Source: Choanephora cucurbitarum (taxonomy: Eukaryota > Mucoromycota > Mucoromycetes > Mucorales > Choanephoraceae). From it: a stretch of 64,000 nt of DNA. Within the stretch, counting starts at the first letter, position 1. Every line of letters starts with the position of its first letter. The position numbers were made by a program, and so were the translations under genes. The DNA lies in the NCBI GenBank assembly GCA_025331435.1, contig JAIWNI010000002.1:310001-374000 (forward strand), given 5' to 3'. The notes under the pieces were generated by a model that searched no databases, had not been told where the DNA came from, and worked only from the letters and a program-made list of their open reading frames with translations. Positions 1 through 64,000 of this stretch are shown piece by piece.

Positions 1-1697
1 TGTGCTTCGAATAATATCCACATGGCCTTTCTTCTTGTCCTTCTTCTTCTTTTTGCTCGCTTTCATACGTGAGAAATGAATGTCTATATTGAGAGGTAAT
101 TGAATCAATGGGCGGTGGAACGATCTCAGTTCTTGTTTTGAAAGCTTTGTCTTGTAAAGAGCAGGATGAAGTTTGAGGGCGGGTAAGGCATGCTGTACCA
201 CTAATTGACCAAATGTCTGTCGAACACGGATTAGGCGACCTGCTAGGTGAGATTCATAGTGTTTATCATTTGACAGATTGAATCGGTTGAGAGGCAGCTT
301 GTTGTGAGGCTCAGTTTCAGTATGGAATATCTGAATCTTTGGTAAAGGACGAGGAAGGGGTTTACGACCCTTTTTGACATGTTTTGGTTGAGGCAAGAGC
401 TCCTTTGTAGCTTCGACTTCTTCAACATCAAATAGCATGTTAGGATCATTGAGATCTAGTTCAATCTTCATACTGCTGCTGTCTGGCTTTTCGTTGTTCC
501 AGATAATAGCGTCTATCCAATCACCTTCTTCCAAAGCCATATTTAAGTGTTTAATTGCATTTTCTTTCTCTTCCTGTCCAATTGATGCTAAGCCTTGAAC
601 ATGTATCATTCTAAGATCGTAGGTTAGAGCAACATCATTGCTTGTGGTAGATAGTACTTTACTCCATTGCTTCATCTTCATCCTCGTCATCGTCATCATC
701 ATCACCCCAAACAATCTCATTTTCCCAATCCTCTAACATAACAGAGTGGTACAGTTTATCATCTTCAATCGCTTTGGGTAGTTCAGCTGTTCTCTGCTCT
801 ATCCTTTCCTCTTCCTCTTCTTCCTCCTCTTCTTCTTCAATGTCGCTTGTATGCTCTAAAGTGCGTTGCTGTGATTCAATGCGCCTTTTTTTCGTATTCT
901 GTTTAGCCTGTTCAATTCGAAATCGGTCTAATTTGCTTGTTCTCAAAAAGGCTGTACGGTCATCTCTTTCCATTTCGTATTCATAACCATCCCCATAAAT
1001 AACTGGCAACAACAGATTAAGAAAGGTACAGAATAATTGTTTCTGCAAGGCTTACTTACTTCGTTTCTGAGCAGACAAACGAGGAGGTCGCTTGATTTTA
1101 GTCATGAATAGTTCGGAAAACTTTAAAATCTTGTTTTTTTCGAATCCTGGAAAAATATGTTGTACATCCATTGTTGTTGATTGAGAAGTAGTTGAAGGCT
1201 TTGCGACAGATACTTCGGGTAAATCCAATTCCATAGGCTCTTGTTTGATGTCTTCTTGTTCCTCTTCGTCAGAATCATAGTTGTCGGTTACTAGAGCTAA
1301 ACGCGACCGAGGCAAATTCTTTTGAACCATGCCCATGCCGCGTCGATAATATTTCTCTTGTTCGTCAGGTATAGCTTCATCAAAATCAGAATAGTCGACA
1401 GCATCTTTGGAATGAGCAGTTGGTATATTGGGAATACGAAGTTGGGTAGGTTCGTCGTCGTCATCGTCATCGCTCTCATTAGATTGGCGTGATACGTTTT
1501 CCAAACCAAACGTGTCGCCACTGAAGATCTTTGACATCACATTGGCATCGACACTAGATAAAGTTTCTCTCAAGTCCTAATCAATAAGTAATGCATATCG
1601 TTTCACATCAAAATATTCCCTTCTTTACCTCATCAAGGTCACTTTCAAGACGTCCTTGCTCGTCTACATTACCAAAGAAATAACCTGCTAACGACAT
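1..1697 (-). CDS. TAF1: TFIID subunit TAF1, 5' part (cut by the left edge)
   Basis: Largest TFIID subunit; scaffolds TBP and promoter binding in the nucleus. Read as four exons: 1697-1629, 1576-1060, 1002-663 and 610 to the left edge, with introns 1577-1628, 1003-1059 and 611-662, all GT..AG, the last with a CTAAC branch point. The protein starts MSLAGYFFGNVDEQG, like the SLTGFLFGN start of animal TAF1. KDAVDYSDFDEAIPDE and FPGFEKNKILKFSELF follow, then an acidic run and WENEIVWGDDDD, all in TAF1 order. The reading frame is still open at base 1, just after HFSRMK where the conserved central (DUF3591-type) domain should begin, so that domain, any bromodomain and the C-terminus lie outside. The apparent stop at 659-661 lies inside the third intron. 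The family match is firm; borders are inferred from splice signals. Confidence 0.92.
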
Positions 1698-3470
1698 ACT
1701 TTTTTTCTTGAAAAATAATAAAAGTAGAAAAAAAGAAAGAAATATTTACACAGCAAAAAAAAAGTACGCCAAATTGTAAGCCAATCAAATTCTATCTCTA
1801 CATCAAAATAAGCATATACTTCCTGGAGTAGTTGCGAAAATCTGACAAAGCATATAATAGATGCTCTCAAAAGCTTGACATAAAACAAGAAAGCTTCTAT
1901 TCATTCATAGACTAGCTTTCATAAGGCCATTCTTCTAAAGCCTTTCAGAACCATTTACGCTTCACAGTTAACTGAAGAGATTCAAGAGGCCAGTATTATT
2001 TGTTTAACCATGTATTATTGCAATGCAAATACAGGTTACAAGGACCAGGCTAATAACTTTAACAATACACAAACAAAACGAAAATTATGCAAAAGAGCAA
2101 GGCAAAATTCTTATCTGGCAAAAACAATCAACGAGTTACATTTAGACTTCAATATAGTATTATATGCTTCTATTGAAAAGAAAATGTCTCCAGTCACTCT
2201 AAGGACACTCTTCATCAAACGACACTTCTTATCAAATGGCAGAGCCTATTTAGAAGCTCATTTAGTATATTTATTCTGGTTTAGTCGCTATGTATTACAG
2301 ATAATGCTTCTTGGGCTACTGCAAATTATTAGTGATGCTAGTAAGGTGACCCGAAACGTCAAGGTTGTGAACACCTTTAGAACAGACAATCTGAGCTATG
2401 CTTGGCGTTGCTTTCCTCTGTAATCATGTATGTCTTGGTCCATTCACTCTCCTTCAAAAAGCGACAAATAATCAAAAAGGAGATTTTAAAGAGACTAACC
2501 ATTTTTTACTCTTCATTAACAAACTGAGTAATCCATGCATTAGACTTCTTCAAATCTACAGCACAAAGAAAAAGGATGTACTTGGCTTCAGAGAGTACAA
2601 TCTCTAACAGTTGATTAGACTATGGTGATAAGCGAGAGTGAAATGGAGCTTGATGAAGCATCTTTTTTCGTAAGCGATTTCGATTGTGTTGGTATAGCAA
2701 ATGTATCAGTATCACACGTCAATATATACAGTGGTTGCTGATTTTGAGTGTGTTCGACTTAACAATATAGCTCAGTTTGGGATAGAAACACTTTAGAATG
2801 AAAATCAATCCAAGCACTAAAACATCTTCCGACTTAGGAGTATGCTCAAAGTGAAAGTAGATTACTCAAAAAGCATCAACACTACTATGTAAAGTGGTTC
2901 GAGCATGGTATAACAGCCCCGTTTTTCCCCTTGGTTATTCTTTGTTCGGCTTGTTCATAGTCCACAAGAAGGTCTGTGTTTTTTTTTCTCTGTTAGTTTG
3001 TCAGAATCAACCGGAGTATGTGAGTTATAAGCATGCAGTTAACTAGATCATTTCATACAACAGATAATTGCGATTATAGTATATGTTCCAACAACTGGCT
3101 ACACTTTATCAATAGCTTTCACAGTCTAGACTCTATTTGTTTTGAAGGTCATTGTTAGTAGAGCTTTTTCATTTTTCTGTAAATAAAATGCAGTGAAGCT
3201 TCTACAAAATTAGAACATTTGTGGTTCTTGCGTCAAATCAATACGGCATTCATCAGTCAAAGTCAAACAGTGTAAGACAAGTGTATTACTTACAGTTTTT
3301 GCTGTCACAAAGGGTATCTAGAAGTTGTTTTTCTTTGCCAATAAAGGGTATTTAAGCGAAAAAAAAAGCATAATGATGTACGTTGGTTCCTTACTCAATT
3401 TTGACATTCAATGAAACTTGGTTACACAAAGGCTGAAATGACGCATAAAAAATCATATGAAAGTTGTTTA
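1698..3470. other. Intergenic, no supported gene
   Basis: About 1.8 kb between the TAF1 start and the DGAT2 stop. An open frame at 2010-2423 (+, 137 codons, starting MYYCNANTGY) and a second at 2398-2607 overlap but match no family I recognise and lack clear splice or promoter context. They could be a chance ORF, a lineage-specific gene or an old mobile-element remnant. Nothing else stands out. Confidence 0.4.
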
Positions 3471-4671
3471 CTAACTAATAATTTGCATATCTTGCTTTCT
3501 ATCTTTGGCATAGACATCCTTGTATTTGCTATAGATGCTTTGTAGCTCTTCAATGTACAATGCTTGTGTGTCTTTTAACTGTTTTTCTGTAGGCTCTGTT
3601 TGGCCTGCTGCTAATTTGGGAACAGAGATAGGTTTGCCCACTTGATAAAAAAAAAAGTGAGTTGTGGCACTACTTTTTGCTTTGTCATGTTTACTTTACC
3701 AACAGTCACTACTGGATGTCGATAAGGTATCAATCCTACATCATCTATGTTTAAAAAAAAAAGATGAGCATCAGCTGTCTTCATTCTCTCCTCTCACATC
3801 TTGATTGTTTACAATTAAATACACCCCGTGCATGAAACAATGGCATTGTAAATCCCAAACTGTGCTGCATTTTTTTCTGAATTTTCCAAAGCCAAGTTCC
3901 TTTGTGATTATCCACTTGCTCATACAAATCATTTTCTCCAAACGAAAAAGTGGGTACTAAATCAGCTCCATGACGTATCGCCATACGAATAAAGCCTAGT
4001 CGCTTTTTTAGTGTAAGGTCAGCTATCCCTGGACGAGCACTCAGTGATTCAGCTGCACCCCCAATCACAATCACGATCGATCGACCAGGACCTGAAGACA
4101 AGATGTGCTCACACGAATGGCGCGAGACAGATGCCAATCCCATCGCCAAGATGATCTCACGGTAAAGTGGAATCTGAAAGTTTGTCGTCAAGGTCAAGAG
4201 TGAAGGTTGGATACCGGGAAACTGGTCAGAAAACCCGGTGGCCTCTGTACCAAAGTTACCAATTGCGCCTAGACTAATAATCCCATGAGGATGATAGCCA
4301 AAAATATAGTTACCCTTGGGGTCCAGATCTGCTTCTTTCACTAGTTGGATAGGGAAATACTGAACAAAATAATGCCAAAAGGGCAAGCGTCGAAACCATT
4401 CAGAACGACGACCTCCGTTCTCGGGTGCTCTATCTTTCCAAATAAATATAAGATAAGCTATATGAAGAGGCCACAAGAAAGGAAGTAACATGGTCCAGCC
4501 AAAGAACATGAGGCAATTGCCTAACAGAAACATCCATATCAAGATGGCAGCTGTTTGAAGTCGACGTTCTAATGGCACTCGTAAGGGAGCCCATCGTATC
4601 TGTACAAGAGGATCACGTTTAGGCCTTTTCTGGCTTTGATCGTGATCAGCCTTGTTTTTTATTTGTGTCAT
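3471..4671 (-). CDS. DGA1: Diacylglycerol O-acyltransferase, DGAT2 family
   Basis: Catalyses the last step of triacylglycerol synthesis (diacylglycerol plus acyl-CoA) at the ER and lipid-droplet surface. Three exons, 4671-3813, 3744-3700 and 3640-3471, give 357 aa, a normal DGAT2 length. Two hydrophobic segments lie at about residues 40-60 and 62-78. The family YFP motif is near residue 105 and the catalytic HPHG tetrad at 127-130 in FGYHPHGIISLG. VIGGAAESLSARPG matches the conserved central block, and splicing restores NYDDVGLIPYRHPVVTVVGK near the end. The start is the first ATG (MTQIKNK); it follows a pyrimidine-rich stretch ending TTTTGGTAG that could be the acceptor of a 5' UTR intron. 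Mucorales are oleaginous and usually hold several DGAT2 paralogues, so which one this is cannot be said. A monoacylglycerol acyltransferase role is possible. Confidence 0.93.
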
Positions 4672-6728
4672 AACTACCAAAAGAAACAAAAGAAAAAAGA
4701 AATGATGCTCTGTTTACTCTGAGAAATGCATAGATGGTCAATGTTGTGTCTTGAAAATTCAAATAGCGTCAGCCAACCATTTTCTTTAATTGATGATGCC
4801 TTTTTCTCTTCTCTGCATGGTCTTTGATTTTTAAATGGTCCTCAATTAAGTAGCTAAGACGAGGTAGTGGAGTAAAAACAAAAGCACTTTGAAACGAAAA
4901 GAAGCTAAAAGCTCCTCGCATTTATTTTGTCTGAAGCAAGTTGATAGTAAACATATGAAGTTCACATTTTAGCTAGAGCTTAATTAATATCTACATTATA
5001 GACAACTATAGTCCATTAACATACTGCATTTCACCAGAAGAGGGTTGGACATAGACGACCTAGTACACTTGAAGTTATCGGCATCATGCGCTCGAAAACA
5101 GCTTTATATAAAAGGAGTAAAGCTGTAACTTTATTCCATTTACACACTGAGATTCGTCAAAACTTGAAATCAAGCATTATTCTAGTAATGTTTCGCATAA
5201 CAAGCGCAAACATGTAGAATGCATTGAACTAAACAACCAAACACACTGCGATGTCTATTGGTTTTACTTAGAAGAACACATTAACACTATTATTAGAAAG
5301 AATATAGGTTTACCCAGCTGAAAGAGTCTTCCTGCACATGTTTTTTATTTATTTCTTCACAAGTTTGTTCAGGTATGAACACGATGTAGAATAGTCTTTG
5401 ATTCAGGAAACACTGAATTAATGGTATCTATCAATGCTCAATTCGTTTCTGTGACAAAATTGTCAGGGAGAAGACTGGAATCAGTTCAATTAGGCCAAGC
5501 AATGATCCTCAATAGTTTCCTGACTCACTGATAAATCAAATAGTTTTTTTTTTCTTATCCAGTATTCAGCGACATGAATGAAGATTAACTAGTTGTGGCG
5601 ATACTCATAGACTACCGTACCTGTAACAATGATATCAAGCAGCACCATTTGATGATTATTTCCCTTTTAAGTCGCCTCGATGACGACATTTTCAGGGAAA
5701 CATATCGATTTTTCCCTTTCATATTCGTGCATAAAAAATCACGTTTACTTCGCCATCGCTGTCAAGCTTTGTGCGTAACTGTTGTCCGGGCTACCCCCAA
5801 GTGAAAAGTGAACTCGAACATCTCAGAAAGCATATCATGACTGAAGCGTTGCTAGATGTTATGCAGATCGTCAATAGCAATGCCATTGTCACCGTTTCTT
5901 GCTACCAATGACTAATAAGAACGCAATTATGCTATATTTAACAAGTAAACAATCGTATAGCAACTCAACTGAATTCCAGGAAGCATAGTCTTAGACAAGT
6001 AAAATGATGCAAGGTGAGGAGAGTTTATGAAATCACAAAGTGCATTCTTTATTTTCGTTCTTTGTCTTGCATCAAATGACAACTATTAGTCATACATTTA
6101 TTTTTCGAACTGCAATATCGTTTACTTTACTTCGACATGCCGCAAGCGAATTCAAATTCCTCAGAAGCAAGTTTTCTAAGCGCAAAATAAGTTGACAAGC
6201 TGTTAGATGTGCCGATAACACTATATTCTTCTACTTTTGTGTTGTTTAAGACTTTTCAGCATCTCTGTTTATAAGTTTCTGTTTCAATGTCTTGTTTCTC
6301 TGATGTTATATCTGCATTGCAAGACAACGTGGCTGTTTTTTTTTACTCTTGATTTTAGTAATGGGGGCATCTAAAGTAACTTCCTAAAGCTTGTGCCTTT
6401 TGCAAAGCTCTTCCAAGTTTTTAAACTTGGCATTAATAAAAGAGGCTTTATCCTATTTCACTTTTATACTGTAAGGATTCAGAGAGGGCAATGATCAGCA
6501 GAAAGATAGCCTGTAGGAAACAACCGAACTCACTGCAAATTCCTTTGAAACTCAACGGTGTCAGATCAGCAAGTATGGTATTAGGCTGAAAAGAATTTTT
6601 GAATAAAATGATCGCATAGGATGTACTACTTGTTATGCCAAAGTCTTTTTTGTACACCAAATTTTGACCGGAGAAAGCATATTTTGTGTCTTTTTTTTTC
6701 TCAATTTGTTTATTCGAGATCTCACACT
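4672..6728. promoter_or_regulatory. Bidirectional intergenic region between DGAT2 and TRM5
   Basis: About 2 kb between two divergent genes, so both promoters lie here. It is AT-rich with many stops in all frames, and I see no convincing gene, tRNA or repeat. The pyrimidine-rich stretch just before the TRM5 ATG (6691-6720) resembles the leaders of other genes in the window. Individual regulatory sites were not identified. Confidence 0.4.
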
Positions 6729-42788: not shown

Positions 42789-43119
42789 TATAATAAAAGT
42801 CTACACTTTGAAATGTTGGGAAATGTAAAGTATACACTTTCTACGAAGACTAAAAATGTAGTATATACCCACCCCTTTTTTGGTCTCATCTTTTTTTTTC
42901 GCGATATCATTCATTGGTTTAGATTTCTTCCCTCCCCTCAAAAAAAAATTGAATTAGTTACATCTAGTGCTTAGCATGAAAAATAGAGGGGAAAAGGATT
43001 TTATTATTTTCTTATCATTATTCAAGAAAAATAAAGCGTGGCTCAAAGAGCATGTATCACATTAGAAGTCGGATTCGAGTCAACAAAGACTGCTCAAGGA
43101 ACGACAAGCAATCCATTCT

Positions 43120-43220
43120 AAAGAAGTGTGCAATGTCAAGCGTGCAATTTGAATTTTTTATTAGCGTAATCTAATTTTTTTTGAGTGCAATCTATTTCCG
43201 GAAAAGGTGTTGAATTTGTC
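43120..43220 (+). repeat. Dispersed repeat, copy 2 (partner at 28120-28220)
   Basis: AGTGTGCAAT, GTGCAATTT, GAGTGCAATCTATTTCCGG, GAAAAGGTGT occur in the same order as in copy 1. No coding capacity seen. Confidence 0.5.
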
Positions 43221-44762: not shown

Positions 44763-47322
44763 AGTCATTACAAAACAAACAAAGAACATCTGCAACTTTT
44801 TTTGTAAATAACTTTCACTTTCGCGCCTATACATACACACACAACTGCATTTGAACATACGTTAATGAAGGCTTGTATTTATTTTCGTTTATGTGCATCA
44901 TTCTACCTTGTCTATATCCCACCCCTTTCTCGTCAGCTTTTTCCTTTTTTTTTTTGCATGATATCTCTTTTTGCTTAGCGGAGATGAGCCGCATTTTTTT
45001 GTCATACCAGTTAAGCCTATGCTTAGTCAAATATTAGACTATAAATAAACTACAAGAAAAAATAGAACAGCACCATGTCTTTTTACTACTTCTAAACGAG
45101 TAATATGAAACATTTGATTTTAAGTCCAAATTCATCTTATTTAAGTACAATTGACATCAAATTACATCCTCTACTTCTTTATTGTTCAAGTGCGCTACAA
45201 AGTATTTTTTTCGGTAACACATGTTTCAGAATAGATTGCATAACATTAAGGAATCAATTGCACAACTGTGCAATATCAGAGAGTGACGCTTAATTCCATC
45301 ATAATTGCAATTCTGAATCATAGTAGCAGATAGATTCAATACATTTATGTCTGAAGCTAGCATTGCTGCACATACTAATTATTCTCAAAATTAAAACAAC
45401 TTCTCTTTCCACACTTCTTCAAAAACCTAAATCATTTGCCCAAGAAATTGAGCCTAGGAGAATATGATGAAAGAGTTCACATAACTATTTCTTCAATTGG
45501 TAGTCTGCTTCTTCTTTTCTTTCTTTAGTATGATTTGAGATATATTGTAAGAGAACATGCTATAGTATGTAAGGCAATGTTACTTTGAACTATTCATGCC
45601 GGTTAGGTTGATACCCGAGATAGTTACAAGTGATGTAGTAATCGAGAAGAATTCTTGCTGAATTAAGTTTCATGTTGATGAGTACTTTTGACTAAAAGAG
45701 TTACAGCTACTTCCTTTGATAGCAAACCTCAGCTTAACTCTCGAGAAAGAATCAACTCATGTTATTACCTGTCAAAATCTTGGAAAGAAAGTCTCGAATA
45801 AAGTCATGCTCTAACGGATGAAACAAAAACAACAAGAACTTCTTTTCAGTATAAGGTTTATATCTAACCTATACCGAGTGTGAATTTGATTTATTTTCAT
45901 TTGAGTTAAGACAGTCTGTGAATAAGCTATAGCTAGTGGTATGAAACATGCATCAGCTTGATCCGTAAGAAGATTCTTCAACCTCTGGTCATGTACTCTG
46001 ATGCTATTTTTCAGACAGGAGTTCTTCTTTAGCAATCACGATCTCATATATTATTGAGAAGATAGCATAGCTAAGCTTTTCTTGGTTGCACCTTCTATTG
46101 GCCTCAGTTCTTGTAGTATCATAGTAGCCACTCAAGAGTGCTTGATTTAAGAGCATGCTCAATATAAGTGTTTACACTTCAAGAATAGGAACATGATGAA
46201 CTAAAGCGACTATTGGAAGCTCCAGAAAGATGAAGTATTGAGCAAAACAACTGACTAACCATAAATTTATCTTGAGCATGGCAGTTTTGGCACAAATCTC
46301 CTAAGAAAAAGAAAAAGGGTGCTAGTAACTAATATATACGTCACTCAAGAAGAATGCTTTAGTCGAAACATTCGGCGCTATACAAATGATGTAGCTGGCA
46401 TGAGGCTCAGGAAGATAAATAGAAGCAGTAAAAAAAACCTTTCGATATCCCTTCTAATGTGATACAAATTATTCACACAACACACCATAAATAAGATAAA
46501 ACGCCATTCAACATTTTATTAAACGTATACATTTGAAATATAGAGTTTGTAACTTACGACAGTTTCATGACTTTGCAGAAAGAACGTGGCTCTTCTTGGA
46601 TTATCATCTGATGAGCAATTGTCGTTGATCATATCAAGAAAGAAAAACATGGTCAAAAATAGAAAGTAAGAAAGTTATTGACTTTACAGTATAACCTATA
46701 CAATCAAATTGTCGACAATGTGATTGTATGTCCTCCAACTGTACGTTTATTCTTGAACCATCTAAAATAAACTAGTGACATTTATGCGAAGAAAAACGGG
46801 CAAAACTAAACATAAATGTAGAAGGAGCAGGATTATCAGTTGAAGTTCTTTTACCTCTCTGTTGTTGTCAAGCAGATATGTAGCGTATTTGATGGCATGG
46901 ATTCGATCTCCTTATAGAAAGAATTTCGATTGCTTGGTTTGTTAATTTTAGAGAGTAGAAAAAGCCTGTTGTTGAATTGACTTACTAGAAGAAAAAGAGA
47001 AAAACCAACTTCATTGTGTTTACTTTTAGCGAGTTTACTATCACACAATATTCATTTGGTCAGGTAATGTATCAACAAGTTACTGATATTGAGATTAAGC
47101 CGTACAACGTTAGCGTTTGTTTTTGTATCACTATGAGGAACAGAAAAGGGAAGAAATAAAATGTCTTGACTCTATCTTCAAAAGCCAAAGGGACAAATGC
47201 TCTGATAATGTGTTGTGATCGTTTCATTGACAAGATATACTATGTATTCGCTTAATGCATATACAAGAGGTAAAAGAAAACAATTTATTCAAAAGAATAT
47301 TTACAAATATATATATACACTG
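44763..47322. other. Intergenic, 2.6 kb, no supported gene
   Basis: AT-rich; frames are all under 75 codons and none resembles a protein family. A near-palindrome TTGCACAACTGTGCAA lies near 45260. No tRNA or other RNA gene recognised. Confidence 0.4.
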
Positions 47323-50201: not shown

Positions 50202-52034
50202 CTATGTTGTGTCGATAAAGGCTCGGAGACCACAACCTGTATCATCCATTAATATGAAATGAATTTCTTTACATTGCACAGTGACAGTCATCTGAGCTGG
50301 ATTATCAACAGCATCTTGGAACTGGTCTTGAGTAGCAGGTAAGCTTCTAGGACTATCAATCGTAAAGTACTTGGTTGCTCTCTCATCAGAAACCTTAAAG
50401 AAAAACTTAGATATACCTTGAAACCAAATACCCTCTATACCTAACAAATGCAGTATGGCGCCCGACAGATCAAACATCAGGTTAGTGTTCTTCTTTCTCA
50501 CCAGACCGCTAGATGCTTCAATCAACCGTGGATATGCGATGCCTAGCATTCTGAGTTTAGGGAATTGCTCTATTATTCGCTGCAATGCAATAGGCGCAAA
50601 CGCACATCTTCTGAGTGTCAACATCTGTAGTGGGCTCTGGAGGTCGCTTTCAATCTCTTGCTCCAATAAATTCGTAGCGGTTAATTGCAATATTTTAAGT
50701 TTAGGACATAGAATACATATCTGTTTAAGATAGCATTTAGGTGCAGTCTCCGGCTTGACATCTTCATTCCTTACTCTCAAAGGAGCAAGCGATTCTGGCC
50801 CCATTGAGAAGATAGTCAAGTCGGTCACTATTTGACTTATTCTCTTAGCTTTTTCACTGAATTGGCTAATGAATTTGGATTCAAATGCAGCTGACATTTG
50901 AACATGAGAGTTGTGCCTTCTGCCGGACTTAGAGTATACCATATGGAGCTCCTTCAAAGTAATAGCAGATCCTAGCTGATAATCTGCTCGAAACTGTACT
51001 TCAAAAGTCCCTTGTGTTAACGATTTTTGTAGACCTATAAGTAGGCTATCTAAATTCTTGAAATTGGTGTCGCGAATATTAAAATTCTCAAGCTTGGATA
51101 GAAAGGTAATAGCTTTTTGAACAGAAGCTTCTGAAAGAGATGGTTGTATCTCCTCATACTGAGAGATGTATTCGCATTTTTCTGTACAGCTGATTTGAAG
51201 CTCTTTCAAACTAGGATATTTGTGGACAATGTAATCAAAAATGGCTCCAGATCCAAGTGCAGTACTGACATTCAGTACTTGTATCTTGGTATTTGGCTTG
51301 TTGTGAAGCACATCATGATCGAATTGAACTGATATTTGATCGGGGGAAAAAAGCCGAAGACTGAGCTTTTTTAAGCTTGGCAGTTGGTTGATTATCTTGT
51401 CCAGTTCATTTAATCCACTTGATTCATAGCGCTGATAAATCAGTTTCTCTACGTTTTCGAATAAACTTAGTCTGCTGACCATTTTATCATATCTTTCCTT
51501 ATGGTTTCCTAGTTTTGGCACAAAATAGTCGCATAACATGATGTCATTCACTTTATCATGCATGGTTGTGATGGCCTCAAAATAGTATGCGACTTCATGA
51601 TCGTTTTGTGGATAAGGAAGTTCGATTAAATTTTTCCAGTGGCCCATCTTCCATTGTTCCATCAACATTTCCCAAAAGAAAATCGATGTCACTTCCATTC
51701 GAATGCAACGCAATCTAGGTGTGTATTTAGCCAGCTTCGAGATTACTTCAGCCATATAATAGTCATCTTCATCTGAAAGGCCGTCTATATAATTATCTTC
51801 ATATATATACAGTATACTGATTTTACAAACAAGCTGTCCAATATCAGACGGTGATTCAGATAGCGCGTCAATAAGTAAATCCATCTGTTCGCTTGAGTAT
51901 ACTTCTATGTCTTTATAGATAGCTCTTTGAGCAACCTTCTTCCAGAAAGAGCAAACTAGTTGACATTGTGTCTGGTCACACACTTTGAGATAGCCAAATA
52001 TTTGTTCTAATATTTCTTGCGGTAAATTGGTCAT
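50202..52034 (-). CDS. F-box protein with leucine-rich-repeat-like region, 610 aa
   Basis: Likely substrate receptor of an SCF ubiquitin ligase. Single exon; ATG at 52034. The F-box is at the N-terminus (MTNLPQEILEQIFGYLKVCD, CQLVCSFWKKVAQRAIYKDI, about residues 1-45), which binds Skp1. The remainder consists of irregular LRR-like units, for example LPSLKKLSLRLFSPDQ, YPSLKELQISCTEKCE, LSKLENFNIRDTNFKNLDSL, CPKLKILQLTATNLLEQE and FPKLRMLGIAYPRLIEA, which should form the substrate-binding surface. Such F-box/LRR proteins are numerous and fast evolving in Mucorales, so no orthologue or substrate can be named. It is divergent from the SZT2 homologue with about 0.9 kb between starts. Confidence 0.88.
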   Translation of the reverse strand: MTNLPQEILEQIFGYLKVCDQTQCQLVCSFWKKVAQRAIYKDIEVYSSEQMDLLIDALSESPSDIGQLVCKISILYIYEDNYIDGLSDEDDYYMAEVISKLAKYTPRLRCIRMEVTSIFFWEMLMEQWKMGHWKNLIELPYPQNDHEVAYYFEAITTMHDKVNDIMLCDYFVPKLGNHKERYDKMVSRLSLFENVEKLIYQRYESSGLNELDKIINQLPSLKKLSLRLFSPDQISVQFDHDVLHNKPNTKIQVLNVSTALGSGAIFDYIVHKYPSLKELQISCTEKCEYISQYEEIQPSLSEASVQKAITFLSKLENFNIRDTNFKNLDSLLIGLQKSLTQGTFEVQFRADYQLGSAITLKELHMVYSKSGRRHNSHVQMSAAFESKFISQFSEKAKRISQIVTDLTIFSMGPESLAPLRVRNEDVKPETAPKCYLKQICILCPKLKILQLTATNLLEQEIESDLQSPLQMLTLRRCAFAPIALQRIIEQFPKLRMLGIAYPRLIEASSGLVRKKNTNLMFDLSGAILHLLGIEGIWFQGISKFFFKVSDERATKYFTIDSPRSLPATQDQFQDAVDNPAQMTVTVQCKEIHFILMDDTGCGLRAFIDTT

Positions 52035-52909: not shown

Positions 52910-55900
52910 ATGACTCATTCAGAAAACAAACTCATCACCGATACAAAAGTAATAGAACTTTCTTGCAAAGAGAAACAATTAAGGCCTAACTTTTCTGTCT
53001 TTTTTTTTCTCTCTTCCTTCTTATTCATATCAGAAAATTGTTGAAGCTCGAACAGCTGTCTTGCTGGCCAACCGTCACAGTAATGCTTCACAGAATATGT
53101 GGTTCCTGGGGCATATGTTCCGACCTCTTCAAATTGGCAAATACGATGTAAGCTGCATTACTGTTTCCAAAAAAATCTGAGACATATCCAATAACGCCAT
53201 ATTAGGAGTTTCAATTACTGCATCTATCGAGCAACATCAAGCCTGTTTGGGAAAGGAAAAAAAAAGAATCTTTACATCAAACCGAATCACACATCAAAGC
53301 TGGATCTTCTGTCTCAGCAAACAATTCGACGAATACACTTCATTCAGCACTTGCTACAAAAAATGCGGACCACGCCTACATCTTAACTGGACGCACTCGC
53401 ATCTTAAATATAGCAAAAGATCATTGTTTGGTGTTTATGATCGACATGAGTTCTAGTTTAGCTACAATTGGAACAGATGATGGAAGTATCTTGATTGAGA
53501 ACATATTTGTTGCGTAAGTAGATTGACATCAAATTGAGCCAGAGCTACTTACCAAAACAAAACAAAAATAGGATTGAAAACATTCTTCAAGGACTCATTA
53601 TGCCATATGCTTTGTCTCCTTCTGATACATCCAAACCTATCATAGTAAGTATGGATGGTTTTAAATCATACATTGAAGCAGTTCATTTACTCTTATGTTT
53701 GGTAGATAGATCATACAATAAGAATCACTGTGATCACAGAATGCTCTCAATTTGGATCAAACATGAATGTTATTCCCATTTTAGCAGAATATCCTACCAT
53801 GCGCGTCTTAATGCAAAACGCTCAAGTATCAGCAAACAATATACATATTGTATTGAAACAATTAAGAGAGGGAATAGATGCATTTGAAAAAGACTTGTGT
53901 ATCTCGAGAAAAAAGTTAATCATGAAACGACTCAAGATGGGATATGAGCTGGATGTTAGAGACAACCATTCTCAATCGATCACAGATAGCACAGAAACCA
54001 GGTTTAGTTCTGCTGATACTAGCTCAACTTCAACCAATTCGACAAGAAACACATATCCTCGCAAAGCTTCTATAGCCAGCGCATTGACATCAAAGCCGTC
54101 AATCCATCATCAACATAAAAACCATAAAAATAGTACAAATCTATCAAAGCAATCGCAAAGAAAAAATACCTTGTATAACTCCAAAAAGACGGCTGTTCCT
54201 ACTACAGCAAACGCAAATGCTACTCAAAGCCGACCACATATTCATCACAAATCATCGTCATCTGTATCAAGTGCTAGTAAGCCTCAAGACAGTACCGGAA
54301 CCAGTCATTCAAAAGATACGTGGGGCGTAGGGAAGACTGGTAGTACGCTCTCTTATATATTGAGAGCCGCCTTGTTTGCGCTTGAACTATTGCCTGAAGA
54401 TGCTCAGCCCTCAGTTATTTTGATGACTGATGGTGTAGTAAAATCGAATATTCAGGATGAGGCTATAGTCCAAGAAATGGTCGCAAAGAATATTGCATGC
54501 AACATTGTTCAATTAGGGAAGGATATGAGCTTTTTCCCTGGCCTAAACTTTGGATTCGTACCGGACAATGAAATATTAGAATTCGTAGCAAGTGCTACTA
54601 ATGGTACATTTACTTTCTCAGAATATTGCACACCTGTAGTAGACGAATATGATGGTATCAATATAACATTGCCCAACATGTATCATCATCAATATCTGTT
54701 TAAGGAAACTATCCTTGATTCAAAGTCTTTGCGTAATGCAAAAAGCAAAGACAACAGAGCCAAAACACTCAACAAACCTCAAGATAGTTCCGCATCTAGA
54801 ATTGAAAGAATTTCTACGAGACTGAATGGCACTGATTTGTCTACCATCAATACAGGTTTATTGATGCCTCAATTTGACCGAAAAGTGTTTCCGTGGGATC
54901 CAGTAGCCAAACCGATTGTTGAAGAATCAGGACGGCTCAAATTCAAGGAGTACTTTTTGCCTTCTGAATGTTGGCATTTTATTCATGCAAGACTGCGACA
55001 AGGATTTGTACTTTATTCTATATCATTCACAGATGAGCCAAGACCTAGTAGCTCAAAATCGTCAAGCGCAATTAGCAGACAGCTGTCTTCTGAAGTACAG
55101 CCTACAATCCAAAAGAGACAAACTGTTTCTATTCTACTCGTTCTTCGGTGGCAGCCTAACATTTCAGTTCACTACTCCATAAAGTCCGTATGGACCTCAT
55201 CGCTCCATGCCTACCTCAATTCTGTTTCATCCGTGTATGACAATATACCTGAAGAGCCTTATCTTATTAGTGACGAGTCAATGTTCAGCCATATACGAGC
55301 TCCTAAAGTAGATATTATTGTAAAATCATCCTCGACATTTTCACATATGCTGCACAATTGGGATTCTTTCCAAAGAAGGAACCAAATGATGGCTGTACAA
55401 GGCGGAAACATGACTATCGATTTGGCTGGTGCGCCCGGACTGATCAAAGTGGGAAAAATGAAGCGTTTGCTCGAAAGGATAGCAGAATCAGACACCATGC
55501 TTAAGCAGCTGGTTCAGTTTAATTTCTCGGAAAAAAACAACATTTCGATACCACCCAATCAATTCGCTTCCGCCAACATGACTGAATGGGCCTCCCAACT
55601 AAGCTATGTTCAAAAGTTTAGTGCTCATTGGGCGAAGCTTGCAAGATCTGATCTTCATGCTTTCAATATGTGTTGGTATGATGAGTACACGTTCAATTTA
55701 GTATTGGAAACAGAGCAATATGCGTCTACCTTTGACGAGTTACAACAGTTCAACACAGACGAGCCAAGTGAGATACAAACAGATTTCAATTATATTTCTA
55801 CAAAGCTTGAGAAATGGGCAACATTTATAAGTGAAGATCAGCAAGTGTTTATTAAAATACTCAATTTAGACAAAGTTTCTAAAACAGTGAGCAGTCTGGA

Positions 55901-58900
55901 TAGCAACAGGAGAACAAGCCCAGGTTATCCTAATAGCGGATCTCCTAAGCGCCACATCGTTCCTCAGTTTTGCGAAGTGCGGGTAGTAAAAGAAACAGAA
56001 AGATTGTACCAGATACGTATCATGTTTTTTGACACCAATGCCCAATTATGCAAAGACATCACTCAAGAATTGCGCTCATTACTCGATACACAATCGCAAT
56101 ACCAAAAAACTCTGTCGAATCTTGAAGTCAGAGATCCAAGCAGTGACACATATATCAATTCGATTGAAAATGATAGTGAGAAGTATACCGAGAGCTCTAT
56201 AAGCATCAAGGTTTCAAAAAGACCTGTATCAACACTGCTTATTCGCGATAGTATGCACTTTTTACCAGCACTCGATAATGAAAATCGACTTTCTAAACCT
56301 GTTACAACAAACAATAAGCCTTCATGGTATACCAGTCCAAAAACATCTTTGACTGGAGAGTTCATCGTAAAAAACTACCTCAATCGATGCACATGGCATT
56401 GGGACAGTCAGGATTTGTATCAAGATAAACATCCTTATACCACATTTCTTACGCCCTTGGTTGACTTGGCTTTTGGTCTTATAATGTCATTACGAGCTAG
56501 CCAGGTAAATAATTATTTTTGTCCATGTTAAGAATATCTTTTTACTTTTATACTTTTATAGGGTTGGACTCTATTATCATCTAGCAAATCGTTTGGACAT
56601 TTTTATAAGGAAGTCACCTCTAGCTATGATAACAATTTTGTTTATTCCTGTCAATATTTTATATGGAAAGACGCTCTCAAGAAACGTGTATCTACTGAGC
56701 TTTGGTGTGAGCCAATCGTGTCAAGCGATGCAGCTCTCAGACTACACAAAGACTTACAGATCAATATATTCAACAAGGATAGGCAAATATTTTCGCAGCT
56801 GATTACGTTTGATGTGATACATAGCTTTGCATCAAAAATTTCTCCATCAATAAGTGATGCGCTGGCAGCGCACATGCAAACAGAAGATGAAATGCGAGGT
56901 TCAGTCAAATGGATGCAACGAACATCTACGTTTAGCGTCCCCTCCGTATTAAGGAAAAGCAAGCTATTGTTTGCTGAGTTTCCCTGCCCAGAATATCATC
57001 AACATTATCATCCAAAAACGCATCCAGACAACTTTCAAGAATTCAACTCTGCAACCAACTTTAACAGCCAAGAACAGAAGGAGCAAATTTTTATAGGTAC
57101 AGACATTTCATCCAATGCGTTGCCCCTAATGAGGGGAAGACGCAACAACATGACGTCTTCCACAAATTCAACGACAGGAACCCGTTCTAGAACTATTTCA
57201 AAGTTTAGTCCAATTGGATCTCCAATGCCTTCATCTCTAAGAACTCCTCCCGTGTGGCAATCAAAGAAGAATACTGAATGTATCTGTGCTCGTCCTGACA
57301 AATTATTTGCAGCAGAAAAAGATAACATATTAAGACTTCGGTCTGTCTTTAGAGATGTTGCGCTTCTCCATTATTACTTCGAGCAATCTCTCATAAGCGT
57401 GACTGATCGAACCATTTCATTAAACAAATCATCAAATGATGATTTTTGGTCTGAGCTTATGAACAAGTTGTTTAATTCCAACGAATTGAATATCAATAAT
57501 TGTACACTGTATGCTGCGCAAAACTTCCGGGACTTGAGATGCTTCATCAAAGTTTTTGATCCATCCATGTTTATAGTAATACTGATGCCTCGCTTGGATG
57601 CTATAGTAAAAGGTTTGCTCAAATTAGAACGCAACGCAAGAGCAGAAAACGAGGCTCTCTCTTTTGAAAGCATAGGTTTAAACATGTTTGAATGCAGAAG
57701 ACAGATCAGTCATAGTCAGCAAGACTGCACAGTAAATATAACCTTAATGGACCCTCTTATCTACAAAGAATGGTATGAAAGTTTGAGCAACACGTCTAGG
57801 CCAAAATTAGCCTGCGGTCTCAATTCTCCTAGCTCTCCCTTGTCCGATAGAGCGCTTCGTATGATACAAGACATAACCCATATATATTCAAGAAGCTTTG
57901 TAAAATCAATATTCACTTGTTTGCTTCATGGTCGTGCGGTCAGTTCAGAAGACTTTACAAAAGTTTTGGAGATATGTGACGAAACTAATATTGATATAAA
58001 CTTGACTGAATATCTCAATGTTCAAACGCTTCTAATACACCAATCTCGCACAAACAAAGAAGAATTGATGCAAGCAAACCAGCGATTTATTTCTGTACTA
58101 GGACATTACTTTGAACCTGTTGTGATTTCTAACAGCAAATGGAACAATGTATACTGCTACCGTCCTCCGTTTGCAAAAACTGGTCAAAAGCTAGGGTTAT
58201 CGCTCTCATCAGGCGAAAAACCAAACAATCTTACTGACGTAGTTGTGTATGCTCAAAACCCATTATTTGTTCGTCTAGAGCTTAGTTTAAAGAAGCCCCA
58301 TATATCTGGTATAGGGTTTGAGTGTGTCACGCTTCCTGTGAAAAGCTTACCTACTTCATATGGCGGACAAACAGAGGATGGTGCATCTTTTGACTTTGAG
58401 CCTGAATCTATTGGCACTACCTTCTCACCCGTCGATTCTGCAGATGGAACAAGCGCTACATTGCATCTAGTTTGTATGAGTCTGCCTCAATCAGAGTACG
58501 ATCTTCCTGACACGATGGTAACACATCAAGCAGCATGTCCTGTAGAAAATATAGTTCATCGGCAGACGTAAGTAGTAAAGAAAATATATATAAGGCTGTA
58601 TGCTAACTGTTTTTCTAAAGAACGTTTCTTGATATAGACAAATCACATCGTGCTAAACTTTCTTCTCTAAGTCAAGACAAACAAGATGCACTGGTAGAGA
58701 CCGAAGCAAGGCTAAACTGGCTATTTGCTGAAGAAATAATGCATGGCTTGCTCCGCTCGGGCCCCATTACTCAAAATGTTGTCAGATATGTTGAAACACA
58801 ATTGAGAAAGAAGAATCCGTTTGTTGATTTTCCAACAAACACATCCATCCCTCTGGCTTTTGTAAAAAACCAGAAGGAAAGCCGTCGAATGTTTCTTGAA

Positions 58901-61900
58901 GAGCTTGAAAAGTTTAGTAATACACATTACCGACTAATTCGTACAGGAAATTGTTTTTATGCACATGACAATGGTACACTAAAAATCTAGAGTATCACAG
59001 CAACAATGACCTACTTTCAAACGATGACACCAAGAGCGATTGTAACTCTCTTTTGATGGTGAAGGTCTCAACATCACTACCAAACCAGATGCTGATGAAG
59101 CTCTCACAAAGTTGTATGAAAGCGAAGAGCAAGAGGATGACGAATTTTGTCAAGGCCTTGGTATAAGTATACTAGAATCGGAACTTTCTGGGGACATTAA
59201 TAATCATGATGAGAAAGAGGGTGTCAATGAATCGCAACTTTACTGGTTGCTGCTTATTCCTCAAGCACAAAATGTTCAGATGTATTTTTACTCCAAGATG
59301 CAACAGTTTGTAGATCGCTCTGAAATTATCCGTATTACTAAATCGATGGTGAACGATGTGATAAATAAAACAAACAAGCTCTCGCTCTTGCAATCACTAA
59401 ACGACACTCGATTATGCAGGTAAACATAGGCAAGAAAAACTACACTACTGATTACGTGCTCACTTCAAATTGTGTTATGTAGTAAATATCTCCTACCATC
59501 TGTAGATGAAGATGAGTCACTTTATTCCTCTTGCGAAGAATCAAGCGAAGAGGAGAACTTTTCATATGATTCCGTCGCCAGCAACAACAACCTTGTTGAG
59601 ATGCTGTCTACATCAGGTGAAGAAAATGTCCTGAATCCTCCAAAGAAATTTGCTCCTGGCCAATTTAGCTGTGATGTAGTTTATATAAAGCGATTTCCAC
59701 TTCATTGGAGAATATCACCAAATGCAGCTTATAATAAGCTAATGACAGACACGCTTCCGCCATTCCTTGTCAGGAATAAGCCTGGCATGTTTGTCTGCTC
59801 GCATGGAAATTCTGTCCTTTATTTCTTTTTATACGAAGCAAATGCTAACTTGCAACAAAACGCTAATACTCTCTCTGAGCAAAACGGCCAGTCCCACATA
59901 AGCAACTTAAACAACCACGATGAAAATCCAGTTCCCGTCAACCCAGAGTCTCCCTACGGCTCATCTGTCATCAATAGCAATGTTCATGACAACGACGTAC
60001 TGGGAACGTCTCAAAATACAAGAGCACGCTATTCATCACATACTTACAGCAAGCCTTCGCCGCAAGGTAGTATGGCAAGTCAGCAAATTAGCCCCAGCCA
60101 TAGCCCTAGTGTAAATGAAATAAGTGCTTCTGCCTCTTCTCCCATCAGTGGAAGAAGACATAATTCAAGGCACTATGAAATTAGGGAATTAGTATTAGAA
60201 GTACATGGTGTAAAAGTAGATTACTATATTGTTGATGGTCTTGTTGACATGATTGATTCCCGCATAACATCAGAAATCACATTGAAAGAAGTTCAACAGT
60301 TCTTGATGCGCAATCCTGGCTCTCGCCTTTCACGCGCAGACATCAACTTTATTATGCCAGTCGAAAAAGAACCCTCTTTCCGCCACAAACTAAAGATTCC
60401 ATCGCTTATAAACAATACTGCACACTTTTTAAAGATATTGAAGAAGAACATACTTTCCGAGGCATCAATACATCCATTACATTCAAGCTATGCACCTTTG
60501 TTTGTCAAGCGTCATCATGAGATGAGATATAGTCGCCTAGATGAATCAGACTATAAACAGAACTTTCTATGAAAACGGACAGCGACTACCATTTGAGGAC
60601 TGGGCTCTTACAGATTTACTGTTTTACTATAATTATTTGAGCCGAGCACCCGGGACATACATGCCTTTTGAACAAAGAATAGGAGAAGGTGTGGCGGGTA
60701 TCTGCTTGTCAGTATTGGATGACAGCGACATTGCCTACAGCAAAATAACATCTAGTTATCCTGTACTTGGAACTAACTGTCAAAGCAGTCAAATTGATTT
60801 TATAGCTATTCAACAGTGCTTAACTTCTGACTTTGAAGACACAAAAGTTGACAGCAAGCTTGTATTGGCAATCGATATTTGGTCATATTGTAAGATAGAG
60901 TTGGCATATATCTATCATCATGTGCAAAAAGCATTGAAGCAAAGTGTATGCGATTATATAATTGAAAGTACTATATCCAACAGCGCGCATTTTTCTAGAC
61001 ATCAACAAGAGCTAGGAGGTTTTGATTTTCTAGCCAAGACCATCCTCTATACACTAGATATAGCCACCGAATGGCAAAGTTCGACAGCAAAAAAGATATC
61101 TCATGGTATTCAATTGGCTCCATGGTACTTTGAAAACATTTTGGCACAACTTAGGACAGAGCTTGGTAGAGATTCATCCATCATTAGAATCCTATCATTG
61201 CCAAAGCTGAAATAACTACAAAAGTGTTCATGGACGAAGCCCAAGAGCAAATCCCCAACTATGTCTTGGAGTTCGATTATACAGGAAGCGTAGGTCTCTT
61301 CCAAGAAAATAATGACGATATTTCTATGAGTCAAACATTTTCATTACCAAAAAGTCTAAGCAAACGCATTGCCCAAAATAAGACTACCAGGAAAAAATCA
61401 GCTCATGTTCAAAGTCAATTGTACAATGAAAAAACGAAGAAGGCTGCCAAAAATGAACAATATCTCATTTTTGGAGGAATTCCCGAACTCCATGGCAAAT
61501 TTGCAGCTCCTACATTACAAAATGTTCGAAGAGGCAGCATTGATATCTCTGAAGCTCCTAATTTGAATTTGAGAACATATAATCGTAACTTTGTTTATTA
61601 TGGTAGCGGTGGCAATATAAATCCTATTGGAGAAGAAGACATACATCCTGCATATTATGCCAGCGACTCACAGAAAAGGGAAGACAATGCTAGCCTTCAC
61701 AGCAGACAAGAGTCGCTTGCTTCAAGTGTATCTAAAGCGTTCCAACTACATGCTGAAACAAAAAGTTCATAGTCCAGAACAAAAGGATGTTCCACATCAG
61801 TATAGCTTCATTGTGTTAGTACTGGACTCTTCAAGACTCTCAGTCTATACATACAATTGCTCTGAACAGCTTGTTGACCACGTTTACAATTCAACATACA

Positions 61901-64000
61901 AAATTATCTTTCAGCAAGAAACAAGACACATGGGACTTAATAACATATTACATCAAAAGTTGGGTCTTTTCTGTCACACATCCGGGATGTCAGAAATATT
62001 GTCTCGTCCTTACCAAGAACTAGAACTTACCTCGCCATTTCTACCTATTGTTAACAGTAATGCTTCCTTGGCTCAACACAACATCATCTCGCAAGTTCAA
62101 AGTACAATCAACAACACAATAGATCTTTAGCGTCTCCTAACTTAGCTAATACAATCGGACGACTTGCCCATAACGACTCTACTTCTTCCATCCCTATAGT
62201 TAACAATATGGAGCGTCGCGGCAGCAATAACACTACTAGCAACAGCAGTAAACAAATAGGATCTATAGCTGACTTCGAGTCTTTGCAGCGTCTTATCAGA
62301 GGCACATCTGAACAAAAAAGCCGCTCTTCAGTCATGCGCAATTATCGAAGTAGCATGGAAAAATCACTGTCTCAAGCATTGCCTGATAGTTTTGAAAATT
62401 CTAAACTGTACACCATGACAAGAACCATTAGCGATCCTGCCTTCATGACTTCTTACTCAATGAATGCAGACAGAGTCCTAGAAATGCATGCTCAGAATCG
62501 ATTGACTACAAAGGAATTGGTTACCACACAGATCATCTCATAAACCATGGAAAGCCTTATTTAGATTCATTCTTAATCCAATCAAGGCCGTTAGCGGCAC
62601 ATGAAAAAGCTTTCAAAGTTTATACCAAATGGGCTGGACATTATAAAGAAGTTGACGAAATGATGACTGTTGACGAGCTCAAACAGATACTAAAAGCATC
62701 TCGACTGCTGCATTTTTGTCGTACCCCGTTAATATTTTCTGAAACTCCACTTGAGCACCTCGATTTGGATACCAAGAAACTGTCAGTTAATACTAAGGGA
62801 AGCCCAAACCAAGAGATTTTGAGATGGTATGAACAGCTAGCTCAAATCTTCACAAAAGAATATGCTTCCTACTTGGAAAGCATAGGGATGCACATGATTG
62901 TATATGGTCCTTCAAACAACCAAGAGGACGAAGCTAATGCGTACTTATCTCGCTTCATGGTAACCGATAACTGCTTTGTAAACTCACCCGTAGTATATCT
63001 TTTACAAGTGTTTGAAGGTGGATCAATTATGTGCGAAGTTAGACTGACTGGAGTATTTGTTTCTGTTACACTTTATACTCTTCATCGACGATATGGTGGA
63101 CTAAAGGATTCTTCTCATTTTCGTCATCAACAAGATGGTATCGAAAGGGAAAGTTTTCAGAGTTTTATGGCCGAATGTGATCGATTCAAGCAGCGAATTC
63201 ATGTAAATTCATTTATCTTTGATTCCAATTGCGTCAAATTCAGCGAAGTCTGGATAGTATAGAGTCGTTTCCCTCAAGCCTCAATCTCTTGAATATCATC
63301 AAAAACACTATTCACATGTACTATCGACCTCCCACCTATTCTCACAACTGTATGGTCAGTGGCACCTATAGTTTCCCGTTAATGGAAGAGCCTATACAGG
63401 GTTTGATTTCTTGGATGATAAACAATGGTAAAGCATTTGATATGAAGATTTTGAAAGCAAATCAAACCCCTGTCGCGCTATTTGTCTCTTCTAATGATCT
63501 CTCATTCAACGACTACGGTTTAACCGACAAAGGATCCCCTTTTACCTATACGCTAATTATCTTCCCAAAAACACAGACGACCAGCGCCAAAGAAAACAAT
63601 GAAATCATCTCAAATCTAGCGATGAATTCTATGCGAAATAGAGAACAAACTGACGAAGACACAAATGATTGCTCATCGAGTCTACATTTACAATACTTTA
63701 TCCTTGTAACATACAATACTAAAGACTACCATAGCTCAGGTAATCAAGATTGAGGATGTAAGCATAAATTGCTGGTTGAAACTCAAATATTGTTCTTTAG
63801 ATAAAACTTCAGTACTGGTGCAACATTCAGAAAGCAATTTGATTTTGTCTGCAGAGTTAAAACTTAATTTGACAATGAAAAAGGTAATCCTAAACGATTA
63901 ACATCTGCACCATACTCTGTCTGGTACTTATTTTTCATTTAGGTGTTAGATTTATATCAGCGAGAAGTTGACTGGAATAAGTTGTATGAGGCTGCTCGTC
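52910..64000 (+). CDS. SZT2: SZT2-like protein (KICSTOR-type GATOR1 scaffold), cut by the right edge
   Basis: In animals SZT2 links GATOR1 to lysosomes and lets amino-acid loss silence TORC1. Exons: 52910-52948, 53034-53147, 53206-53513, 53572-53644, 53706-56504, 56562-58567, 58621-59419, 59483-63739, 63801-63883 and 63943 onward; about 3,500 residues are encoded before the edge, near the size of human SZT2 (~3,400). Matching blocks: ASQNMWFLGHMFRPLQI, a vWA-like CLVFMIDMSSSLATIGTDDG, LRAALFALELLPEDAQPS then VILMTDGVVKS, KNIACNIVQLGKD, FGFVPDNEILEFVASATNG, LLQSLNDTRLCS, and NKPGMFVCSHGNSVLYFFLY. Low-complexity inserts (residues ~230-380) are fungus-specific. The first ~5.9 kb is clean; from 58980 on, eight one-base frame changes occur (near 58985, 59053, 60565, 61204, 61762, 62120, 62530, 63225), each segment otherwise open and still SZT2-like. 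Either this copy is decaying or the assembly has indel errors. The start is the first ATG. Confidence 0.85.

Follow-up and report, generated by a model that had tools for sequence, protein, structure and literature searches.

In the mould Choanephora cucurbitarum, a large gene that we call SZT2a very likely encodes the orthologue of animal SZT2, the scaffold of the KICSTOR complex. It lies on the plus strand of the 64,000-nucleotide stretch of DNA analysed here (the window; C112:310001-374000, within a searched genome of 33.4 Mb in 357 contigs), runs 392 bases beyond the window end and specifies, with codons read exon by exon, a product of approximately 3,600 residues. With the same high confidence we hold that the scaffold gene was duplicated into two lineages, A and B, and that the broken frame of the window copy is most likely an assembly error. 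The basis computed here is full-length collinear homology, the fold of the middle region, and three KICSTOR subunits together with GATOR1 in the same genome. That KICSTOR with SZT2 occurs in Mucoromycota is already known; what we add is the history of A and B, the evidence from the fold and the explanation by a duplicate contig.

A PDB search with the SZT2a protein retrieved human SZT2 at a whole-protein E value of 5.1e-23, in eight collinear blocks spanning human residues 78-3127. Just one of the eight blocks falls below 0.01 individually, so collinearity bears much of the weight in this match. The frame of the exon 53706-56504 alone also finds human SZT2 (best E 1e-8), over frame residues 216-333 only. 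A profile built from nine relatives matches human SZT2 over residues 97-3375 at a whole-protein E of 1.7e-89, and six of its ten collinear blocks pass the threshold singly. For the poorly conserved middle of SZT2a, structure comparison gave human SZT2 as the sole significant fold match; an earlier structure model from 8 sequences had reached a predicted local distance difference test score (pLDDT) of 48.5 and yielded no fold match at E <= 0.001. Three structures of extended synaptotagmin-2 were matched by the profile at E 2.4e-5, in an acidic low-complexity stretch at SZT2 alignment positions 1580-1700; we took these hits as chance. The SZT2 homologue proposed in an earlier note on this DNA is thus borne out, and the sequence blocks which that note had listed in the order of animal SZT2 are all found in that order on the plus strand. 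Its assignment of the DNA to a Mucorales-type fungus also proved right, as the database record closest to SZT2a is P0001 (EDC96DRAFT_531823, marked 'partial') from Choanephora cucurbitarum, a member of the Mucorales.

How similar are the fungal and the human protein? Length, block order, the DxSxS...TDG arrangement of the N-terminal vWA-like domain and the fold of the middle region are as in human SZT2 (KICSTOR; PDB 9v0j, 9o5a, 9o5e and others). Unlike the human protein, to which its sequence identity is low, SZT2a carries low-complexity inserts and belongs to an order with two paralogues. Both DxSxS and TDG, which we take to mark a metal site, are present in SZT2a and in all three animals compared. 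Full-length SZT2 also exists elsewhere among fungi: records P0062, P0073, P0074, P0075, P0077 and P0084, from Mortierellomycotina, a chytrid and Rhizophagus, are named KICSTOR complex protein SZT2 or SZT2-like.

Does the genome encode the partners of SZT2? KPTN is found at C79:217851-218267 (44% identity over human residues 270-396, E 2.1e-22; best PDB match kaptin, E 7.6e-24). ITFG2, at C212:287339-289258, scores above the Pfam cut-off and has ITFG2 as its best PDB match (E 1.1e-9). Two stretches at C313:94785-95265 lie above the Pfam cut-off for KICS2, and the exon preceding them has KICSTOR subunit 2 as its best, weak PDB match (E 0.49). Each of the three was located at one place, and these counts are lower bounds. 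GATOR1 is represented by IML1/DEPDC5 (E 2.5e-117), NPR2 (NPRL2; E 1.0e-35) and NPR3 (NPRL3; E 8.1e-42), and a sestrin was found as well. The CASTOR1 N-terminal family had no match in the genome, in a search where no positive control responded and which is therefore not evidence of absence. The earlier note had offered two options, an ancestral KICSTOR or an SZT2 that works without the other subunits. The first holds up; the second is not favoured, because KPTN, ITFG2 and KICS2 and all three GATOR1 subunits are present. GATOR1 is shared with yeasts, which have it as SEACIT. Unlike Choanephora, yeasts are reported, in the part of PMC8534245 consulted, to lack the entire KICSTOR.

A genome search with the Rhizopus stolonifer SZT2 (P0005) gave matches at three places: C112, which holds the window; C76, a duplicate of it; and C135:150474-158837 on the minus strand. 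The C135 gene, SZT2b, was modelled with seven exons and no frame jumps, for 3,257 residues, and likely has an extra 5' exon with DLSSSLAT near C135:160192. Its protein is 28% identical to that of SZT2a over nearly the full length and matches human SZT2 in collinear blocks (E 5.8e-25). By sequence, then, this fungus has two SZT2 paralogues, SZT2a and a divergent, full-length SZT2b.

Between approximately 58.9 and 63.3 kb, the reading frame of SZT2a shifts eight times without a recognisable intron. A frame-jump-tolerant scan placed five jumps in SZT2a. The same 81.5 kb holds 27 other models, of which 26 are free of jumps and one has a single jump, at the extreme edge of the sequence. Contig C76 is a second assembly of window positions 45206-79274 (79274 lies past the window end), with 99.76% identity over 34,087 alignment columns. 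The two copies differ by 10 mismatches and by 56 indel events totalling 71 bases, 44 of the 56 at homopolymer runs of three or more, a count that has no shuffled control as comparison. At all eight frame joints C76 is open in one frame and spanned by six or seven of seven relatives from other species, whereas the window copy is spanned there by just 0 or 1 of the seven. Two further sites are reversed, with the window spanned by six or seven of the seven relatives and C76 lacking an open frame. Because a copy 99.76% identical keeps the frame at every joint, the frame changes are probably a consensus or assembly error in an uncollapsed duplicate region. This reading falls short of proof, since neither the window copy nor C76 is open throughout. 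Unusual introns were considered and rejected, since forced introns would delete residues kept by the record from the other contig, and since a single C76 frame can be aligned with other species straight through these positions. The database record P0001 is apparently derived from the C76 copy; it lacks short stretches through which the window reads.

Could C76 and C112 instead represent two true haplotypes, or two types of nucleus, with a separate broken allele in each? We regard this as improbable. The copies do differ by 10 substitutions, each has frame changes not found in the other, and a 4.4 kb retroelement in C76 is missing from the window at 45206; however, a ratio of 56 indels to 10 substitutions, most indels falling at runs (again without a shuffled control), is unlike allelic divergence. 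Even so, the retroelement may distinguish two types of nucleus, in which case the small indels would be errors added to that difference. This insert (C76 approximately 326-4729) contains reverse transcriptase, RNase H, a Dam-like methylase and split inverted repeats, along with a tyrosine-recombinase (phage integrase) match below cut-off, and is presumably a DIRS-type retroelement; related fragments occur at window 42843-43120.

It is highly unlikely that SZT2a is a decaying pseudogene whose work is done by the intact SZT2b on C135. Eight frame changes within approximately 4.4 kb, five scan jumps where nearly all neighbouring models have none, and the jump-free model of SZT2b would fit such decay, but C76 is in frame at all eight joints, and many small indels against only 10 mismatches in 34 kb form a consensus-error pattern. 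Moreover, similarity to other species extends across the affected part, with Sporodiniella P0002 aligned over 126-3636 at 44.6%, and SZT2a orthologues are retained alongside SZT2b in 12 further Mucorales assemblies. That the gene encodes a different giant vWA-containing protein, sharing only short motifs with SZT2, has almost no chance of being true: in its favour, Pfam gave no family above cut-off for five window frames or for the nine SZT2 relatives, yet SZT2 is the top match in sequence, profile and fold searches over most of the length, and the database relatives of the profile include fungal and animal records named SZT2.

When did the duplication that gave rise to SZT2a and SZT2b occur? 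Homologue searches returned 9 proteins for SZT2a, 27 for SZT2b and 125 for the nine-row profile (the best 120 of 125 listed). Dikarya are absent among the named records of the listed matches; a few rows are nameless and the search was word-limited, so that absence from Dikarya is not shown. The main tree contains 77 chosen rows and is rooted on three animals. SZT2a groups in it with records named SZT2, and the phylogeny suggested in the earlier note thus places the window gene among fungal SZT2 rows, in clade A. This clade comprises 22 Mucorales rows; clade B comprises 28 Mucorales and five Umbelopsis rows. Each has a support of 100 in the Shimodaira-Hasegawa-like approximate likelihood ratio test (SH-aLRT), as does A+B as a whole. 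Branching of a further Umbelopsis pair is unresolved between A and B. Outside A+B fall chytrids, Basidiobolus, Mortierella and its kin, Glomeromycotina, Calcarisporiella and Jimgerdemannia (Endogonales), the last with a support of 100. Of the named KICSTOR records above, the four in the tree (P0062, P0073, P0075 and P0084) lie outside both clades, unlike SZT2a.

Thirteen Mucorales assemblies have rows in each of the two clades: Choanephora, Sporodiniella, Fennellomyces, Rhizopus delemar, Thamnidium, Benjaminiella, Pilobolus, Circinella, Phascolomyces, Phycomyces nitens, Spinellus, Radiomyces and a record named R. stolonifer CU098. Umbelopsis isabellina has two SZT2 copies too. Two smaller trees recover A and B as well, and long branches were flagged in all three. 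In approximately unbiased (AU) tests on a 34-row tree, for groups picked after the tree was seen, placing three Umbelopsis-type rows outside A+B was rejected at p 0.0027 and joining them to A at p 0.0034. The trees place the duplication after Endogonales branched off and before Umbelopsis and Mucorales split.

Both paralogues appear similarly conserved. Over 226 columns, ancestral states are retained in 3871 of 4791 cells in A and 3856 of 4639 in B; SZT2a itself keeps 173 of 226 and the SZT2b of C135 177 of 215. Fixed differences between A and B are limited to eight columns, and the majority state of the outgroup is that of A at four of them and that of B at one. DxSxS occurs in 17 of 22 clade A rows (four gapped, one with N) and 23 of 28 clade B rows (five gapped), and TDG in 21 of 22 and 26 of 28, respectively, the remaining two of clade B being SDG. 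Two database labels caught our attention in these trees. P0010 and P0049, from the CU098 genome named Rhizopus stolonifer, group with Choanephora and not with Rhizopus (support 100), and from its sequences this genome may be mislabelled. P0036, a 3,562-residue protein of the SZT2b clade from Mucor velutinosus, bears the name 'glycerophosphoinositol permease'.

The features of SZT2a are collected in the table. Its 13-codon first exon is the least certain part of the model. The exons 53706-56504 and 56562-58567, both very long, make up much of the first half; ALELLPEDAQPS...VILMTDGVV and GFVPDNEILEFVASATNG both lie inside the former. The block LLQSLNDTRLC/S spans the splice 59419/59483. Upstream, on the minus strand at window 50202-52034, is a single-frame gene for an F-box protein.

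Table. Features of SZT2a in window coordinates.
Feature	Position	Strand	Basis
SZT2a gene	52910..64000, on to 64392 outside the window	+	gene models, PDB search, homologues
Putative first exon with ATG, uncertain	52910..52948	+	second gene model; first model started at 53115
Exon	53034..53147	+	flanked by GT..AG introns of 85 and 58 nucleotides
Exon, DxSxS block of vWA-like domain; contains IDMSSSLATIGTDDG	53206..53513	+	gene model, PDB search
DMSSS (DxSxS pattern)	53443..53457	+	position read off the sequence; conservation table
Exon	53572..53644	+	gene model
Large exon: remaining vWA-like domain, low-complexity insert, next domains	53706..56504	+	phmmer against human SZT2, best E 1e-8
TDG of vWA-like domain	54426..54434	+	computed from exon phase; conservation table
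Large exon coding for the middle region; resembles human SZT2 residues 830-1687 in structure	56562..58567	+	
Exon containing two frame changes	58621..59419	+	
Exon, six frame changes; conserved PGQFSCDVVY, HQKLGLF and HVNSF blocks	59483..63739	+	
Exon	63801..63883	+	gene model
Last exon, first part	63943..64000, ending at 64392 (C112:374392)	+	gene model

The animal KICSTOR recruits GATOR1 to the lysosome; once there, GATOR1 inactivates the Rag GTPase and hence TORC1, and the contact with GATOR1 is made by SZT2 (PMC8534245 and PMC11836306, in the parts consulted). By analogy, fungal SZT2 would link KPTN-ITFG2 and KICS2 and dock GATOR1 at the vacuole; upon amino-acid starvation GATOR1 would inactivate the Rag GTPase, and TORC1 activity would fall. 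We infer this same action at the vacuole from the full parts list and the preserved architecture. KICSTOR very likely predates the animal-fungal split, and its scaffold very likely was duplicated in the ancestor of Umbelopsis and Mucorales to give SZT2a and SZT2b, both still conserved.

What might two scaffolds do? Two scaffolds, in a genome where each small subunit was located just once, point to two alternative complexes or to a mixed dimer. The human KICSTOR-GATOR1 supercomplex was solved as a dimer, according to the title of PDB 9o5e, which makes an obligate SZT2a-SZT2b heterodimer conceivable. Our tentative proposal is that Mucorales KICSTOR is built on two old SZT2 paralogues, with KPTN, ITFG2 and KICS2 genes each seen once here, either as such a heterodimer or as alternative scaffolds that direct GATOR1 to different membranes or respond to different nutrients; we rate it as unlikely.

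In the parts of PMC11836306 (Sci Rep 2025) covered, KICSTOR is reported in Mucoromycota, with subunits including SZT2 in early-diverging fungi, as here, and with more than two copies of SZT2 in all members. Those parts give no age for the duplication and do not explain how paralogues were distinguished from split models or duplicate contigs; that copy-number sentence was all we found in the literature searched, where the A and B paralogues are neither dated nor described. The published 'more than two copies' can now be refined, as the Choanephora assembly allows a duplicated contig to be distinguished from the old paralogues. Fold, tree and the whole subunit set lend independent support to a KICSTOR older than the animal-fungal split. 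If it is that old and, as reported, missing in yeasts, then yeasts would serve poorly as models of this arm of TORC1 control. With a dated A/B duplication, genetically tractable moulds would offer a natural test of the scaffold role of SZT2.
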